Assembly: GCF_003096675.1 (NCBI RefSeq) | Contig: NZ_QEKW01000001.1 | Location: 806,001-870,000, forward strand | Direction: 5' to 3' | From: Actinomycetospora cinnamomea | GTDB taxonomy: Bacteria > Actinomycetota > Actinomycetes > Mycobacteriales > Pseudonocardiaceae | DNA: 64,000 bases | Shown here: piece after piece, positions 6,148 through 49,373 of the stretch | How positions within the stretch are numbered: the stretch's first letter is position 1 | How the letters are laid out: each line of letters opens with the position of its first letter | Made by a program: the position numbers and the translations under genes | Notes under the pieces: generated by a model | What the model was told of the DNA's origin: nothing | Database searches by the model: none | Seen by the model: only the letters and a program-made list of their open reading frames with translations

Positions 6148-6310
6148 GCCCGCTCCCCCGCTCCCGCGTGCCCGCACGCGGCCGCCACCCCCTGTGGCGA
6201 CGGCGGGGACGTTACGCCCGGCAGGGCTCCCGCGAGGTCACCGAGGCCACCTTGCGTGGCGGAATCGTCACGCTGCGTGGGTGATTTGGGCGGATTCCCC
6301 CGCGGCGCCC

Positions 6311-6400
6311 GGACTCAGCTCGGCGTCGGGACTCAGCTCGGCGTCGGGACTCAGCTCGGCGTCGGGACTCAGCTCGGCGTCGGGACTCAGCTCGGCGTCG
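6311..6400. repeat. Five tandem copies of an 18-bp unit
   Basis: GGACTCAGCTCGGCGTCG is repeated five times without a mismatch (6311, 6329, 6347, 6365 and 6383). The last copy contains the stop and final codons of the CDF gene on the minus strand. As 18 is divisible by three, every copy presents the same in-frame stop. Confidence 0.97.
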
Positions 6401-7340
6401 GGTCCAGGGCGTCGTCGAGACCTGCCTCGGAGCCGGTGCGGTCGAGGTCGGGCTCCAGGTACACGATCCGGGCCTCGGGCATCGCCGAGCGCAGCCGTTC
6501 CTCGGCGTCGTCGATCGCCCGCGCCACGTCGGCCGTGGACAGCGAGGCGGGCACCGCGATCTTCGCCGCGACCAGCAGCTCCTCCGGACCGATGTACTGG
6601 GTCCGCAGGTGGATCACCCGCTCGACGGGCCCGCCGACCAGCGCGTCGGTGATCGCGTGGGCCCGCCGGTCGCTCACGCCCTCGCCGAGGAGCAGGCTCT
6701 TCGTCTCGATGATGAGGATGATCGCGATGACGCCGAGCAGGACACCGATGCAGATCGTGCCGATCGCGTCCCAGATGACGTCACCGGTCAGGACGGACAG
6801 GCCCACGCCGCCGAGGGCCAGGATCAGACCGACGAGCGCCCCGAGGTCCTCGAGCAGGACGACCGGCAGCTCGGGGTTGACCGAGTTCCGGATGAAGCCC
6901 CACCACGACTGGTCGCCCTTGAGCTCGCGCGACTCCTTGACCGCCGTGCGGAAGCTGTAGGTCTCCAGCGCGATCGCGACGACGAGGATCACGACGGCGA
7001 CGATCGGGCTGGTCAGCTCGTCGGAGCCGGAGAGCTTGTGGATGCCCTCGTACAGCGCGAACACGGAGCCGAGCGTGAAGATCAGCAGGGCGACGACGAA
7101 CGCGTAGAAGAACCGGTCGCGCCCGTAGCCGAACGGATGCTCGCGGTCGGCGGACCGCCGGGCCCGCTTGCGCCCGAGCAGCAGCAGGCCCTGGTTGCTC
7201 GTGTCGGCCACCGAGTGCACGCCCTCGGCGAGCATCGACGACGAACCGGTGATCGCGAAGCCGATGAACTTGGCCACGGCGATGCCGGCGTTGGCCGCGA
7301 GCGCGGCGAGGATCGCCTTGCCGCCTCCGGATGCGGACAC
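6387..7340 (-). CDS. Cation diffusion facilitator (CDF) metal-efflux transporter
   Basis: This 317-residue membrane protein should export a divalent metal such as zinc, manganese or iron against protons. It has the CDF pattern: a first helix with GSSSMLAEGVHSVADTSNQGLLLLG, a basic loop with the HPFGYG signature, several further helices, then a cytoplasmic C-terminal domain ending in an acidic stretch. The long form with this loop resembles the SLC30A9-like branch. A GGAGG ribosome site precedes the GTG start by 6 nt. The stop codon lies inside the fifth copy of an 18-bp tandem repeat. Metal specificity cannot be told. Confidence 0.9.
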   Translation of the reverse strand: MSASGGGKAILAALAANAGIAVAKFIGFAITGSSSMLAEGVHSVADTSNQGLLLLGRKRARRSADREHPFGYGRDRFFYAFVVALLIFTLGSVFALYEGIHKLSGSDELTSPIVAVVILVVAIALETYSFRTAVKESRELKGDQSWWGFIRNSVNPELPVVLLEDLGALVGLILALGGVGLSVLTGDVIWDAIGTICIGVLLGVIAIILIIETKSLLLGEGVSDRRAHAITDALVGGPVERVIHLRTQYIGPEELLVAAKIAVPASLSTADVARAIDDAEERLRSAMPEARIVYLEPDLDRTGSEAGLDDALDPTPS

Positions 7341-29768: not shown

Positions 29769-31784
29769 GTGGACGTCGACGACGCGGACCGGTCGCGCCG
29801 CGATCCCGCCCGCCGCTACGGCCCCTCGACAGCGCGGCGCAGCCCGGGCCGCGCCGGCGGCCCGCCGCTCGACGACGGCCCCACCCCCGCCCCGGCCCGC
29901 GGCCGCGCGCCCGACGCGGGCCGCGACGGCGCCGCCGACGCGCGCCTGCGCCGCCGCGACCTCGCCGAGCTCTCCGCCGTCCCGGCCGGGGCCCGCGGCC
30001 CCGCGGCCCGTCGCCGGGAGCCGCCACCCGGCGAGCGGCCCCGCCGCCCCGCCCCGCCGCGGGGGCGTGACGACCCGCGCGACTCCTTCCGCGACGACCA
30101 CCGCGACGGCCCGCGTGACGGACCCCGCGACCGCCCGCTCCGCGACCCCCGACCCGGCCGCCGACCCGCGGACCGGGACCGCGACCGTGCCCGGGACCGG
30201 GACCGGGACCGGGACCGGGACCGGGACCGTCCGCCCGGCCCACCGCCACGGCCACCCCGCCCGCCCCGGCCCGCACGGGAGCCCTGGCCCGACGACGGCA
30301 CACCCCGGCGCCGGTTCGCGCGCACGCTGCGCCTGGGCGTCATCGTGCTCTCGGTGCTGGTGTTCGCCCTGAGCGGCACGGCCTGGGCGGCGCTGTCCGG
30401 CAGCGTCGGCACCATGTCCGGGGCCCTCGGCAGCGGCCCGGTCGGCAACGCCGCGGACGGGGCCACCGACATCCTGCTCGTCGGCGTCGACAGCCGCACC
30501 GATGCGCAGGGCCGGCCGCTGCCCGCGGAGGCCCTCGCGGCGCTCGGCGCCGGCGCGGCCGACGGCGTCGTCAACACCGACACCATGATCCTCGTGCGGG
30601 TGCCCAACGACGGCAGCCGCGCGGTCGCGTTCTCCATCCCCCGCGACAGCTACGTCTCCATCCCCGGCGCCTTCCGGCGCGACAAGATCAACTCGGCGTA
30701 CCCGGGCGCGAAGTCCGAGGAGGCCGTGCGGCTGGTGCAGTCCGGGGTCACCGACCCGCACGAGGTGGACGTCCGCTCGTCCGAGGCCGGCCGCCAGGAA
30801 CTGGTGCGCGCCGTCGCCGACCTCACCGGCCTGACGGTCGACCATTACGCCGAGGTCAACCTCATGGGCTTCTTCACGCTGACCAACGCCATCGGCGGCG
30901 TCGACGTCTGCCTGAAGAACCCGGTCGACGACGAGCTCTCGGGCGCCCGGTTCCCGGCCGGACCGCGCACGGTCGCCGGCCACGACGCGCTCGCGTTCGT
31001 CCGCCAGCGCCACGGGCTCCCGGGCGGCGACCTCGACCGCATCCGCCGCCAACAGGCCTTCCTCGCCTCCATGTCGCGCAAGGTGCTCTCCAGCGGCACC
31101 CTCGCCGACCCGGTCACGCTGACGCGGCTGCTCGACGCCGTGCGGCAGTCGGTGGTGCTCGACGGCAACTGGGACCTCCTGCGCTTCGGCCAGCAGATGC
31201 AGGACGTCAGCGCCGGCGCGGTCGCGTTCCTGACGATCCCCACCAACGGGACGCGGTTCGTCGAGGGCCGCGGCGAGGTGGTCGACGTCGACCCCGGCGC
31301 GGTGCAGCGCTTCGTCGACGACGCCATCGGTCCCGAGGAGTCGTCGGCCGCCGACGACGGCCCGCCGCCGGGGACGATCCCGGTCGACGTGCGCAACGCG
31401 TCGGGCGCCGAGGGCGCGGCCGCCCGCGTCGTGGCCGTGCTGTCGGCCCAGGGCTACGCGCAGACCGTCGCCGGCAACGCGGAGGATCCGGCCCCGCGCT
31501 CGGAGGTGCTCTTCGGCCCCGCGGGCGACGCCGCGGGCGCGCGGGTCGCCGGCAGCCTCGGGAACCTGCCCGCGCGCTTCGATCCGACCGTCCCCCCGCA
31601 CAGCGTGCGCGTCCTGCTCGCCGCGGACTACACCGGTCCCGGCGCCGCGCCGCCGCCCTCGCCGTTCGAGCGCGCGAGCGAGAACACCGGGAGCCCGACG
31701 AGCGCGGCCGGCGCCGAGGTGTCCTCGCCGGCGCCGCCGCCCCCGCCCGCCATCACCGCCCAGGGCGTCCCCTGCGTCGATTAG
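29769..31784 (+). CDS. LytR-CpsA-Psr (LCP) cell-wall glycopolymer ligase
   Basis: This 671-residue protein should attach arabinogalactan or another polymer to peptidoglycan. Residues 1-185 are a cytoplasmic, very charged region with a run of alternating Arg-Asp; a helix near 190-212 (GVIVLSVLVFALSGTAWAA) spans the membrane; the LCP domain follows with DILLVGVDSRTD, FSIPRDSYVSIPG, DKINSAYPG and LDRIRRQQAFL, containing the conserved Arg/Asp pocket; a LytR_C domain (VDVRNASGAEGAAARVV) and a Pro-rich tail end it. GTG 29769 follows GGAGGGGGG. Position matches Rv3267 (Lcp1). Confidence 0.92.
   Translation: MDVDDADRSRRDPARRYGPSTARRSPGRAGGPPLDDGPTPAPARGRAPDAGRDGAADARLRRRDLAELSAVPAGARGPAARRREPPPGERPRRPAPPRGRDDPRDSFRDDHRDGPRDGPRDRPLRDPRPGRRPADRDRDRARDRDRDRDRDRDRPPGPPPRPPRPPRPAREPWPDDGTPRRRFARTLRLGVIVLSVLVFALSGTAWAALSGSVGTMSGALGSGPVGNAADGATDILLVGVDSRTDAQGRPLPAEALAALGAGAADGVVNTDTMILVRVPNDGSRAVAFSIPRDSYVSIPGAFRRDKINSAYPGAKSEEAVRLVQSGVTDPHEVDVRSSEAGRQELVRAVADLTGLTVDHYAEVNLMGFFTLTNAIGGVDVCLKNPVDDELSGARFPAGPRTVAGHDALAFVRQRHGLPGGDLDRIRRQQAFLASMSRKVLSSGTLADPVTLTRLLDAVRQSVVLDGNWDLLRFGQQMQDVSAGAVAFLTIPTNGTRFVEGRGEVVDVDPGAVQRFVDDAIGPEESSAADDGPPPGTIPVDVRNASGAEGAAARVVAVLSAQGYAQTVAGNAEDPAPRSEVLFGPAGDAAGARVAGSLGNLPARFDPTVPPHSVRVLLAADYTGPGAAPPPSPFERASENTGSPTSAAGAEVSSPAPPPPPAITAQGVPCVD
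30193..30228. repeat. Six tandem GGGACC hexamers
   Basis: GGGACC is repeated six times and encodes alternating Arg-Asp in the cytoplasmic tail of the LCP protein. Hexamer units keep the frame when copy number changes. Confidence 0.95.
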
Positions 31785-46473: not shown

Positions 46474-48129
46474 ATGACCGCCGCGACGGAGCCGTTGCCG
46501 GAGCCCGACAGCCCTGCCGGTGGGGCTGCCGGGGAGCCCGACATCCACACCTCGGCCGGCAAGCTGGCCGACTGGTACCGGCGCCAGGACGACGTCGTGC
46601 ACGCGGGCAGCGAGCGGGCCGTCGAGCGGCAGCACGCCAAGGGCCGCAAGACCGCGCGCGAGCGCATCGACCTGCTGCTCGACGAGGGCTCGTTCCTCGA
46701 GTTCGACGCGATGGCGCGGCACCGGTCCACCAACTTCGGCCTCGAGCAGAACCGCCCCTACGGCGACGGGGTGGTCACCGGTCAGGGCACGGTCGACGGG
46801 CGCCCGGTCTGCGTGTTCTCCCAGGACGCGACGGTGTTCGGCGGCGCGCTCGGCGAGGTCTACGGCGAGAAGATCGTCAAGGTCATGGACGTGGCCATGA
46901 AGATCGGCTGCCCGGTCGTCGGCATCAACGACGGCGGCGGTGCGCGCATCCAGGAGGGCGTGGTCGCGCTCGGCCTCTACGGCGAGATCTTCCGGCGCAA
47001 CGTGCACGCCTCGGGCGTGGTCCCGCAGATCTCGCTGGTGATGGGTCCCGCGGCCGGCGGCGCGGTGTACTCCCCCGCGCTCACCGACTTCACGGTGATG
47101 GTCGACGAGACCTCGTTCATGTTCATCACCGGGCCCGACGTCATCAAGACCGTCACCGGTGAGGACGTGGAGTTCGAGGCGCTGGGCGGGGCGCGCACCC
47201 ACAACACCACCTCGGGCAACGCCCACTACCTGGCCTCCGACGAGGAGGACGCGATCTCGTTCGTGCAGGAGCTCCTGGGCTACCTGCCGTCGAACAACCT
47301 CACCGACCCGCCGCGCATCGCCGGCGAGGAGGAGTCCGGCTCGGTACCGGAGGGCATCGGCGAGACCGACCTCGAGCTCGACACCCTCGTGCCCGACTCG
47401 CCCAACCAGCCCTACGACATCCGCGAGGCCATCACGCGGGTCGTCGACGACGGCGAGTTCCTCGAGATCCAGGCGCTCTACGCGTCCAACATCGTCACCG
47501 GCTACGGCCGGGTCGAGGGGCGCCCGGTGGGCATCGTCGCGAACCAGCCCACCCAGCTGGCCGGCTGCCTCGACATCGGCGCCAGCGAGAAGGCCGCGCG
47601 CTTCGTGCGCACCTGCGACACGTTCAACATCCCGGTGCTCACCTTCGTCGACGTGCCGGGGTTCCTGCCGGGCACCGACCAGGAGTACAACGGCATCATC
47701 CGCCGCGGCGCCAAGCTGATCTACGCCTACGCGGAGGCGACGGTCCCGCTGGTCACCGTCATCTGCCGCAAGGCCTACGGCGGCGCGTACGACGTCATGG
47801 GCTCCAAGCACCTGGGCGCCGACGTCAACATCGCCTGGCCCACCGCGCAGATCGCGGTCACCGGGGCGTCCGGCGCGGTGAGCATCCTCTACCGCAAGGA
47901 GCTGGCGAAGGTGGCCGAGGAGGGCGGCGACGTGGAGGCCCGGCGCGCCGAGCTCCAGCAGGAGTACGAGGACACGCTGGCCAACCCCTACATCGCCGCC
48001 GAGCGCGGCTACGTGGACGCCGTGGTCCCCCCGTCGCACACCCGCGGCTACGTCGCCCGCTCCCTGCGGATGCTCGAGACCAAGCGCGAGACGTTGCCGC
48101 CGCGCAAGCACGGGAACGTGCCCCTGTGA
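46474..48129 (+). CDS. accD5: Acyl-CoA (propionyl/acetyl) carboxylase carboxyltransferase beta subunit
   Basis: This 551-residue subunit transfers the carboxyl group from biotin to acyl-CoA, probably making methylmalonyl- and malonyl-CoA for lipid synthesis. The N-half has [27 protein letters not shown], and the C-half [32 protein letters not shown] and [21 protein letters not shown], the oxyanion and CoA elements of AccD5-type enzymes. Leaderless start, TACAGT 8 nt upstream. It is followed by a chain of tiny overlapping frames and then accE5. Order matches Rv3279c-Rv3281. Confidence 0.96.
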
Positions 48130-48213
48130 GCGCAGCGAACGACGAGGTGACGCTGTGAGCGCAGGCGAACGACGAGGTGACGCTGTGAGCGCAGCGAACG
48201 ACGAGGTGACGCT
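48126..48213 (+). repeat. Three tandem stop-start modules between accD5 and accE5
   Basis: Units of 29, 30 and 29 bp (48126-48154, 48155-48184, 48185-48213) repeat the start of accE5. Each begins GTGAGCGCAG and ends GAGGTGACGCT, which is a ribosome site 5 nt before the next GTG. Tiny frames [10 protein letters not shown] or its longer form end in TGA overlapping the next GTG, giving a chain from the accD5 stop to accE5. The second unit carries one extra base. Confidence 0.97.
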
Positions 48214-48456
48214 GTGAGCGCAGCGAACGACGAGGAGTCGGCCCGCCCGGTGCTGCGCATCGTGCGCGGCGAGCCCGACGCCGTGGAGATCGCGGCGCTC
48301 ACGGCCGTGCTCGCCGCGGCGGGAGGCGGGGGTGACCCCGAGGGCGAGGCCGTCGCGCCGGTCGCGCCGTCGACCTGGGCGCGCCCGGTCGACCTCGTGC
48401 GTGGCCCCGTCCACCCCGGCCCCGGCGGCTGGCGGGCCTCGGCCCGTCCCCGCTGA
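48214..48456 (+). CDS. accE5: Acyl-CoA carboxylase epsilon subunit
   Basis: This 80-residue protein stabilises the actinobacterial acyl-CoA carboxylase complex. VLRIVRGEPDAVEIAALTAVLAA and WARP.. then PGPGGWRASARPR are the epsilon signature. GTG 48214 was chosen because GAGGTG lies 5 nt upstream and the start is in a copy of the tandem module. It is coupled to accD5 through overlapping GTGA sites, so it is made with its partner. Confidence 0.95.
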   Translation: MSAANDEESARPVLRIVRGEPDAVEIAALTAVLAAAGGGGDPEGEAVAPVAPSTWARPVDLVRGPVHPGPGGWRASARPR

Positions 48457-48482
48457 CCGCCTCGAGCTCCCCAGGTGACCTG

Positions 48483-49373
48483 ATGGCCCTGTTGCGCCGA
48501 CGTCGTCGCACGCTCGTGGGTGGCGAGTCCTACCGGGACGCCGACCACGCCCTCATGCCGATCCCGCCGACGGGCGGGCTCGTCAGCGCGCAGCTCCGCA
48601 ACGTCGAGGGCCGGCCGCTGCCCGGCGTCAGCGTCGCGATCGTGGAGACCGAGGGGCTGCGGCGGGTGGTCACCCAGTCGCCCACCGACCCCTTCGGTTT
48701 CTACACCTCGGCCGTGCCCAGCGGCTCCTACACGCTGCGCGCCTCCCTCGGCGGCTACCGCACGCTGACCCGGGAGCTCGCCGTGGGCCGCGGCGACCAC
48801 GCCGCCCTCGGCGCGCTCACGATGACCGCCGACCAGGGCACCACCCGCCCGCCGCCCGGGGAGTGGGTGATCGACGACGCCCACAGCCGGCTGGGGTTCG
48901 TCGCGCGCCACATCGCGCTCTCCCGGGTGTACGGCGAGTTCACCCGGTTCCGCGGGTCGATCGTCATCGCCGAGGAGCTCGAGGACTCCAGCATCGATGT
49001 CGTCATCGACGCGGCCAGTATCGAGACCCACAACGCCCAGCGCGACGCCCACCTGCGCTCGCAGGACTTCCTGGCCGTCGACGACCACCCGCAGCTGCAG
49101 TTCTCCAGCACGCGCTTCGCGGTGCGGGCGGGCAACTCGTGGACGATCGACGGCGACCTGACGATCCGGGGGCGCACCAACGACGTCCGGCTCGACACCA
49201 CCTACCTCGGCACCCAGACGTGGAACGGCACGCGCGTGGGGGCGACGGCCACCACCTCGCTGCACCGGGAGCACTTCACGCTCAACTGGCAGCAGATGGT
49301 CGCCCGCGGCATCCCCGTCGTCGGCTCCACGATCCAGATCCACCTGGACGTCCAGGCGGTCCTCCAGCTCTGA
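48483..49373 (+). CDS. YceI-family protein with N-terminal carboxypeptidase-regulatory-like domain
   Basis: This 296-residue protein begins with a small beta-domain (QLRNVEGRPLPGVSVAIVETEG..YTLRASLGGYRTL, about 35-105) followed by a YceI lipocalin-like domain (WVIDDAHSRLGFVARHI, FRGSIVIAEELEDSSIDVVIDAASIETHNAQRDAHLRSQDFLAVDDHP, GDLTIRGRTNDVRLD). YceI proteins bind a polyprenoid or similar ligand. No signal peptide is seen. AGGTG lies 6 nt before the ATG. It stops 4 nt from the facing TetR gene. This gene is not in the M. tuberculosis order as recalled. Confidence 0.88.
   Translation: MALLRRRRRTLVGGESYRDADHALMPIPPTGGLVSAQLRNVEGRPLPGVSVAIVETEGLRRVVTQSPTDPFGFYTSAVPSGSYTLRASLGGYRTLTRELAVGRGDHAALGALTMTADQGTTRPPPGEWVIDDAHSRLGFVARHIALSRVYGEFTRFRGSIVIAEELEDSSIDVVIDAASIETHNAQRDAHLRSQDFLAVDDHPQLQFSSTRFAVRAGNSWTIDGDLTIRGRTNDVRLDTTYLGTQTWNGTRVGATATTSLHREHFTLNWQQMVARGIPVVGSTIQIHLDVQAVLQL

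Follow-up and report, generated by a model that had tools for sequence, protein, structure and literature searches.

A Tandem Stop-Start Repeat between accD5 and accE5 of Actinomycetospora cinnamomea as a Probable MIRU-Like Translational-Coupling Cassette

Start-Codon Repeats and the accD5-accE5 Junction

Mycobacterial interspersed repetitive units (MIRUs) are presented in the accessible text of a recent review as repeats, apparently mobile, whose insertion at a start codon leaves an internal open reading frame (ORF) coupled at -4 nt (J Bacteriol 2025, PMC12548453, citing Supply et al. 1997). Tandem MIRUs of 77 and 53 bp lie between senX3 and regX3, according to the available part of PMC4213456. 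Here, we investigated a tandem array between accD5 and accE5 of Actinomycetospora cinnamomea, located in a window of 64,000 nucleotides (the whole stretch of DNA that was analysed). The array is probably a tandem MIRU-like translational-coupling cassette, that is, one that would hand ribosomes over from accD5 to accE5. The features of the junction, in window positions, are as follows.

46474..48129, + strand: accD5, acyl-CoA carboxylase beta (carboxyltransferase) subunit (Pfam PF01039, E 5e-202)
48126..48154, + strand: unit 1, 29 bp, whose GTG overlaps the accD5 stop; 10-codon mini-frame (direct reading; Tandem Repeats Finder, TRF)
48155..48184, + strand: unit 2, 30 bp (one extra G); 20-codon frame with its stop at 48215-48217 (direct reading)
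48185..48213, + strand: unit 3, 29 bp; 10-codon mini-frame whose stop at 48215-48217 overlaps the accE5 GTG (direct reading, TRF)
48144-48149 and 48174-48179, + strand: GAGGTG of units 1 and 2, each 5 nt before the next GTG
48203..48208, + strand: GAGGTG of unit 3 (the last), Shine-Dalgarno (SD)-like and placed 5 nt ahead of the accE5 GTG
48214..48456, + strand: accE5, acyl-CoA carboxylase epsilon subunit, 80 aa, GTG at 48214 (Pfam PF13822, E 1.6e-18)
48214..48235, + strand: partial fourth copy, the first 22 nt of the unit, which is also the beginning of accE5 (direct reading; TRF array end at 48235)

The accD5 start codon was our choice from the in-frame starts, and its stop was read directly. 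A carboxyltransferase domain followed by an epsilon subunit, both above the Pfam cut-off, identified the pair as an accD-accE operon. The last codon of accD5 (CTG) and its TGA form the GTGA overlap with unit 1, the stop of every mini-frame in units 1-3 is a TGA overlapping a later GTG, and the unit 2 frame (from 48155) crosses the unit 3 start in frame. All three full units end in ACGAGGTGACGCT. The extra G of unit 2 could be a sequencing error, and the chain is intact with or without it. Thus, direct reading of 48126-48213 bore out the preliminary description, which had claimed three tandem copies of 29, 30, and 29 bp between the accD5 stop and accE5, a GAGGTG 5 nt before the next GTG in each copy, and tiny frames of 10 codons (or a 20-codon read-through form) closed by a TGA overlapping GTG. 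TRF delimited the array at 48124-48235 with 3.8 copies and 97% matches, and its score of 215 was the highest among the 150 of 172 repeats listed for the window. Moreover, accD5-accE5 was the sole place in the 64 kb, on either strand, where at least two DTGA-joined frames of at most 30 codons followed an open frame 100 or more codons long.

Each unit begins with a GTG set over the TGA before it, continues with an open frame of roughly 10 codons and an SD, and closes in a GTGA combining its own stop with the next start. Ribosomes finishing accD5 would restart at unit 1, traverse the units, and restart on accE5, and the SDs would serve as extra entry points with no equivalent at a bare accD5-accE5 overlap. 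Both reinitiation along the chain and fresh ribosome entry at each SD are possible. Since the unit length is 3k+2, gain or loss of a 29-bp copy keeps the chain unbroken and copy number can drift.

The likeness to MIRUs is drawn from how they are described. Both are short repeats at a start codon with an ORF at -4 nt from the next gene, as far as the consulted excerpts describe MIRUs; here, GTGA occurs at every step in all 12 Actinomycetospora junctions that hold a unit, on geometry alone. Tandem copies of varying number are common to both (0, 2, or 3 between species here), and 77 and 53 bp are 3k+2 by our arithmetic, as are 29 and 38 bp, the two unit lengths of this genus. However, the MIRUs in those excerpts measure 53-77 bp and belong to Mycobacterium, whereas the present unit measures 29 bp and belongs to Actinomycetospora. 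Dispersal over many loci is not matched either: exact 29-bp copies lie at one junction in A. cinnamomea, although the 38-bp unit of the sister clade is one of a dispersed family. Short coupled upstream ORFs and bicistronic designs, as outlined in the accessible text of PMC12548453, likewise use a short ORF to deliver ribosomes to the next start, but a single one rather than a tandem array. The suggestion that such a repeat was not a described device therefore has to be dropped, because MIRUs are already described, in that text, as start-codon repeats with an ORF coupled at -4 nt. In the literature covered, often in part and mostly outside subscription journals, no tandem relay outside mycobacteria was found described. 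The kind is already known; what is new is its minimal multi-step form outside mycobacteria with its own SD, together with the finding that a second family has a related module at this junction.

Copy Number and Shine-Dalgarno Strength across the Genus

The genus was sampled with 18 genomes, one per species, of which 17 had an accD5 locus; the one without (G014) was 83% complete. The 29-bp unit was present at 6 of the 17 loci, a 38-bp unit at 6 (1 or 2 copies), and no unit at 5. A. cinnamomea, G011, G003, and G006 had three copies of the 29-bp unit, and G001 and G015 had two. G012, G016, and G007, in the same accD5 clade, had none. In the sister clade, 6 of 8 genomes carried the 38-bp unit, twice in G005, and G017 and G004 lacked any unit. 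The 38-nt insert of G008, which shares 22-25 of 38 letters with the other five, was scored as a 38-bp unit on place, length, and partial likeness; its mini-frame chain is also unbroken. Within the first clade, the branching of the genomes without a unit lacked support, so that one gain followed by losses and several later gains are indistinguishable. The 2- and 3-copy states alternated inside both supported array-bearing subclades. The AccD5 tails of A. callitridis, A. straminea, and A. lemnae were 96-98% identical to that of A. cinnamomea.

Unit variants were mostly common to the copies of one genome and different between genomes; all three units of G011, for example, end in ACGAGGTGTGGCT. 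A few copies depart from this: the middle unit differs in G003 and in G006, the second unit of G015 has another last letter, and unit 2 of A. cinnamomea has its extra G. This pattern looks like concerted turnover. The change in copy number by slippage that had been proposed for the repeat finds support in relatives, where comparison of the junction, as the preliminary description had recommended, gave 0, 2, or 3 copies of a unit mostly alike within a genome, as repeat turnover would predict. An assembly artefact against a background of single-copy relatives, which it had named as the contrary case, was not what we found: 29-bp arrays occur in six separate assemblies. Its view that the unit repeats the accE5 beginning was correct for A. 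cinnamomea, with its 22-nt partial copy, and failed in the other five 29-bp genomes, whose AccE does not begin with the unit. By this comparison of sequences, the 29-bp unit does not represent the original start of accE5.

The proposed relay was kept in its geometry and, for most units, in the supply of an SD to the next start. At all 12 occupied junctions the accD TGA overlaps a GTG, the mini-frames (10 or 13 codons; 20 for unit 2 of A. cinnamomea) are open, and GTGA links continue as far as accE5. At the native overlap start, the anti-SD duplex was -4.3 to -5.5 kcal/mol in all 17 genomes. The SD before accE5 reached -9.7 to -15.2 kcal/mol in all six genomes with the 29-bp unit and -9.5 to -10.3 kcal/mol in four of the six with the 38-bp unit; in A. 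cinnamomea, the GAGGTG of the last unit gave -10.2 kcal/mol versus -5.5 at the native overlap start. The unit therefore usually gives accE5 an SD without counterpart at the bare overlap.

Related Modules and the Origin of the Unit

A module, GTGAGCG-GCGAACGA, occurs at the accD5-accE5 junction of other Mycobacteriales. In G274, which belongs to another family (probably Mycobacteriaceae), 14 of the 15 nt after GTGAGCG were identical to the 29-bp unit, whereas among the 35 RTGAGCG sites of our window the best outside the array matched at 9 of 15. The G274 module shares the junction with our array but lies in frame and extends AccE, with no relay. Of the 14 junctions read in this family, four held modules that are clearly akin: three of these lie in frame, in G274, in G239, and, as four 27-bp copies, in G310, and the fourth, in G304, forms a 21-codon relay; the junctions of G298 and G286 resembled modules, and the other eight did not, or not clearly. 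In an exact search of 121 genomes of the order, GTGAGCGVAGCGARCGA was found at 30 places in 18 genomes and the reversed pattern at none. Five places were at accD5-accE5 (three in A. cinnamomea, the others in G274 and G239) and 25 elsewhere; at one of the latter, in G299, it forms a single relay. One of the 25 off-junction settings (G272; L331, L349, L352) consists of 57-bp in-frame tandem modules beginning GTGAGCGGAGCGAACGA. The gene after them we take to be similar to acyl-CoA dehydrogenases. According to the available parts of two reports, accE5 has structural variants (PMC12663572) and is one of the genes so affected between two M. tuberculosis strains (PMC12817950).

Outside the genus, 174 junctions bore AccE once four loci in which no AccE core was recognised had been set aside, and 84 of the 174 start directly at the overlap. 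Among the other overlapping-start junctions, 24 of 49 had a single mini-frame relay (5 to 65 codons) into a start in the accE frame, a hint of a general excess of relay frames at accD-accE. Structural variants of accE5 presumably lie in N-terminal repeats. Arrays of units beginning with RTGA at overlaps had lengths of 29, 38, and 38 bp (3k+2) and 39, 27, and 57 bp (3k), and none of 3k+1, a length that would break both a relay and an in-frame extension. This set is small and hand-picked, the chance expectation being (2/3)^6 = 0.09, and it leaves out a repeat of Actinophytocola gossypii (L089), whose accD-accE junction carries 2.9 copies of 22 bp (3k+1) with no start in each unit. The same junction of Phycicoccus jejuensis (L123) has 1.9 copies of 42 bp.

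Within the A. cinnamomea genome, exact matches to a 15-mer of the 29-bp unit occurred only at the accD5-accE5 junction. With up to two mismatches, a 16-mer had 16 matches versus 5 for the reversed control, and across the 18 genus genomes 14 to 39 versus 1 to 8; among the matches listed for A. cinnamomea, all those off the junction had two mismatches. Since many genes start with GTGAGCG, which the reversed control does not preserve, some of this excess would arise anyway. The unit may thus have remote kin elsewhere in the genome. A dispersed Actinomycetospora element with the core GGGAGACGCAGCGGAGCGGAGCTCGACC, which the 38-bp unit of the sister clade resembles or contains, was found at 4 to 131 places per genome with up to three mismatches (10 in A. 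cinnamomea) versus 0 to 2 for the reversed core. Further gene pairs also have it at their GTGA overlap, two of them in tandem at 38 or 39 bp. An exact search for its RTGA-beginning form gave 19 places in 10 of the 18 genomes, six of them at accD5-accE5. The other 13 correspond to 11 loci, with Pfam domains on both sides of the overlap at L192 (deaminase/2OG oxygenase), L193 (DUF218/HD domain), L199 (ABC ATPase/permease), and L206 (YcaO/TIM barrel). Long frames flank the element at L198, the gene upstream at L205 has Radical_SAM and BATS domains, L204 has two 38-bp copies after a hydrolase gene and no clear downstream gene, and L194-L197 are not clear overlaps. At L193 (positions 1501-1617, G004), three in-frame 39-bp copies lengthen the N-terminus of the HD-domain protein at the stop of the DUF218 gene.

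The 29-bp unit aligns to the first 21 nt of the core GAGACGCAGCGGAGCGGAGCTCGACC with two single-base gaps, and against eight element copies the shuffle fraction lay between 0 and 0.076 in seven cases and was 0.75 with the copy of G008, so that kinship with the dispersed element is at most suggested. A plain duplication of the accE head and accD tail was also tried as the source of the unit and was rejected, the shuffle fractions in three unit-less clade relatives being 0.27, 0.047, and 0.65 (marginal in one, unsupported in two).

Several other repeats were seen. At L326 (632-800, G227), 81-bp tandem units each contain a 15-codon mini-frame closing in a GTGA overlap. L334 and L345 (G233 and G282) carry ATGAGTGAGCGCAGCGAACGAATC, which reads MSERSERI from its ATG; this protein start is presumably common in Micromonospora. 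The window itself has an 18-bp tandem repeat at 6303-6402 (5.6 copies, 97% matches, unit CGGCGTCGGGACTCAGCT) and a 24-bp one (3k) at 30065-30151 with GTGA in its consensus unit.

Weighing the Explanations

Sequence, geometry, the differences in copy number between species, and the gain of an SD are the observed basis for a hand-over cassette; we infer that the tiny frames are used by ribosomes, that accE5 needs them for its output, and that the length of the array has an effect. Several findings weigh against such a cassette. The first link is nearly automatic, since a last codon CTG followed by TGA invariably yields GTGA, and any founding insert has one chance in three of being 3k+2 long, a length that later copies inherit. 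The SD before accE is weak in two of the six 38-bp genomes, G005 (-3.0) and G010 (-6.6), as is that of one inner unit of G003 (-6.4). Five of the 17 genomes have no unit at all, so the unit is dispensable. Beyond the genus, frames compatible with a relay were only in mild excess (29 versus 16, one-sided p 0.036, a value that ignores relatedness).

These absences, and the alternation of 2 and 3 copies in both supported subclades, would also be expected of a tolerated neutral repeat, in which translation of the downstream gene survives an insert of 3k or 3k+2 and copies drift without effect on AccE. The accessible text of PMC12548453 takes MIRUs as minimal-impact insertions, and related kinds of module form in-frame N-terminal extensions at unrelated genes. 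Nevertheless, accE is preceded by a strong SD in 10 of the 12 occupied junctions and none of the 12 has a broken mini-frame, and we regard neutrality as possible but somewhat doubtful. It is unlikely that the array is mainly an RNA structure masking the accE5 start as long as the upstream frame goes untranslated. The A. cinnamomea array folds better than its shuffles (z -3.84; -3.14 in a second run), with the accE5 GTG paired and the SD mostly free in the predicted fold; however, z was -1.73, -0.90, -0.93, +1.42, and -1.27 in the other five 29-bp genomes, so the fold is not kept, the accE5 start is unpaired in G006, and the sole Rfam match up to E 1 scored 25.6 bits against a gathering score of 89.

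A promoter for accE5 inside the repeats, like that reported for the senX3-regX3 MIRUs, is very improbable here: no sigma-70-like site, the one promoter type covered by the scan, was found in 47900-48500 on either strand, and the promoter and terminator scan around the array found none of the scanned types. We give hardly any weight to a repeat acting mainly as an N-terminal extension of AccE. In-frame related modules do lengthen AccE in G274, G310, and G239, and the AccE of A. cinnamomea starts with a partial unit, but all full units in the six 29-bp genomes are closed by TGA ahead of accE5, and AccE has no unit at its start in the other five.

A broader and quite speculative generalization, which we consider improbable as a whole, is that self-contained hand-over cassettes (GTGA, mini-frame, SD, GTGA) settle and multiply at stop-start overlaps in Mycobacteriales, their length modulo three deciding between relay (3k+2) and N-terminal extension (3k); at accD5-accE5, a junction they occupy in two families, copy number would be a heritable, slippage-driven setting of epsilon-subunit supply.

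The translational-coupling cassette suggests that MIRU-type inserts are perhaps not confined to mycobacteria. At 29 bp, it is a minimal form in which every functional piece is visible: start, frame, SD, and stop-start. The natural junctions with 0, 2, and 3 copies in relatives offer a test bed for relating chains of tiny frames to the yield of the next gene, and the simple rule of 3k+2 for relay and 3k for extension may be used to find like inserts in other operons.
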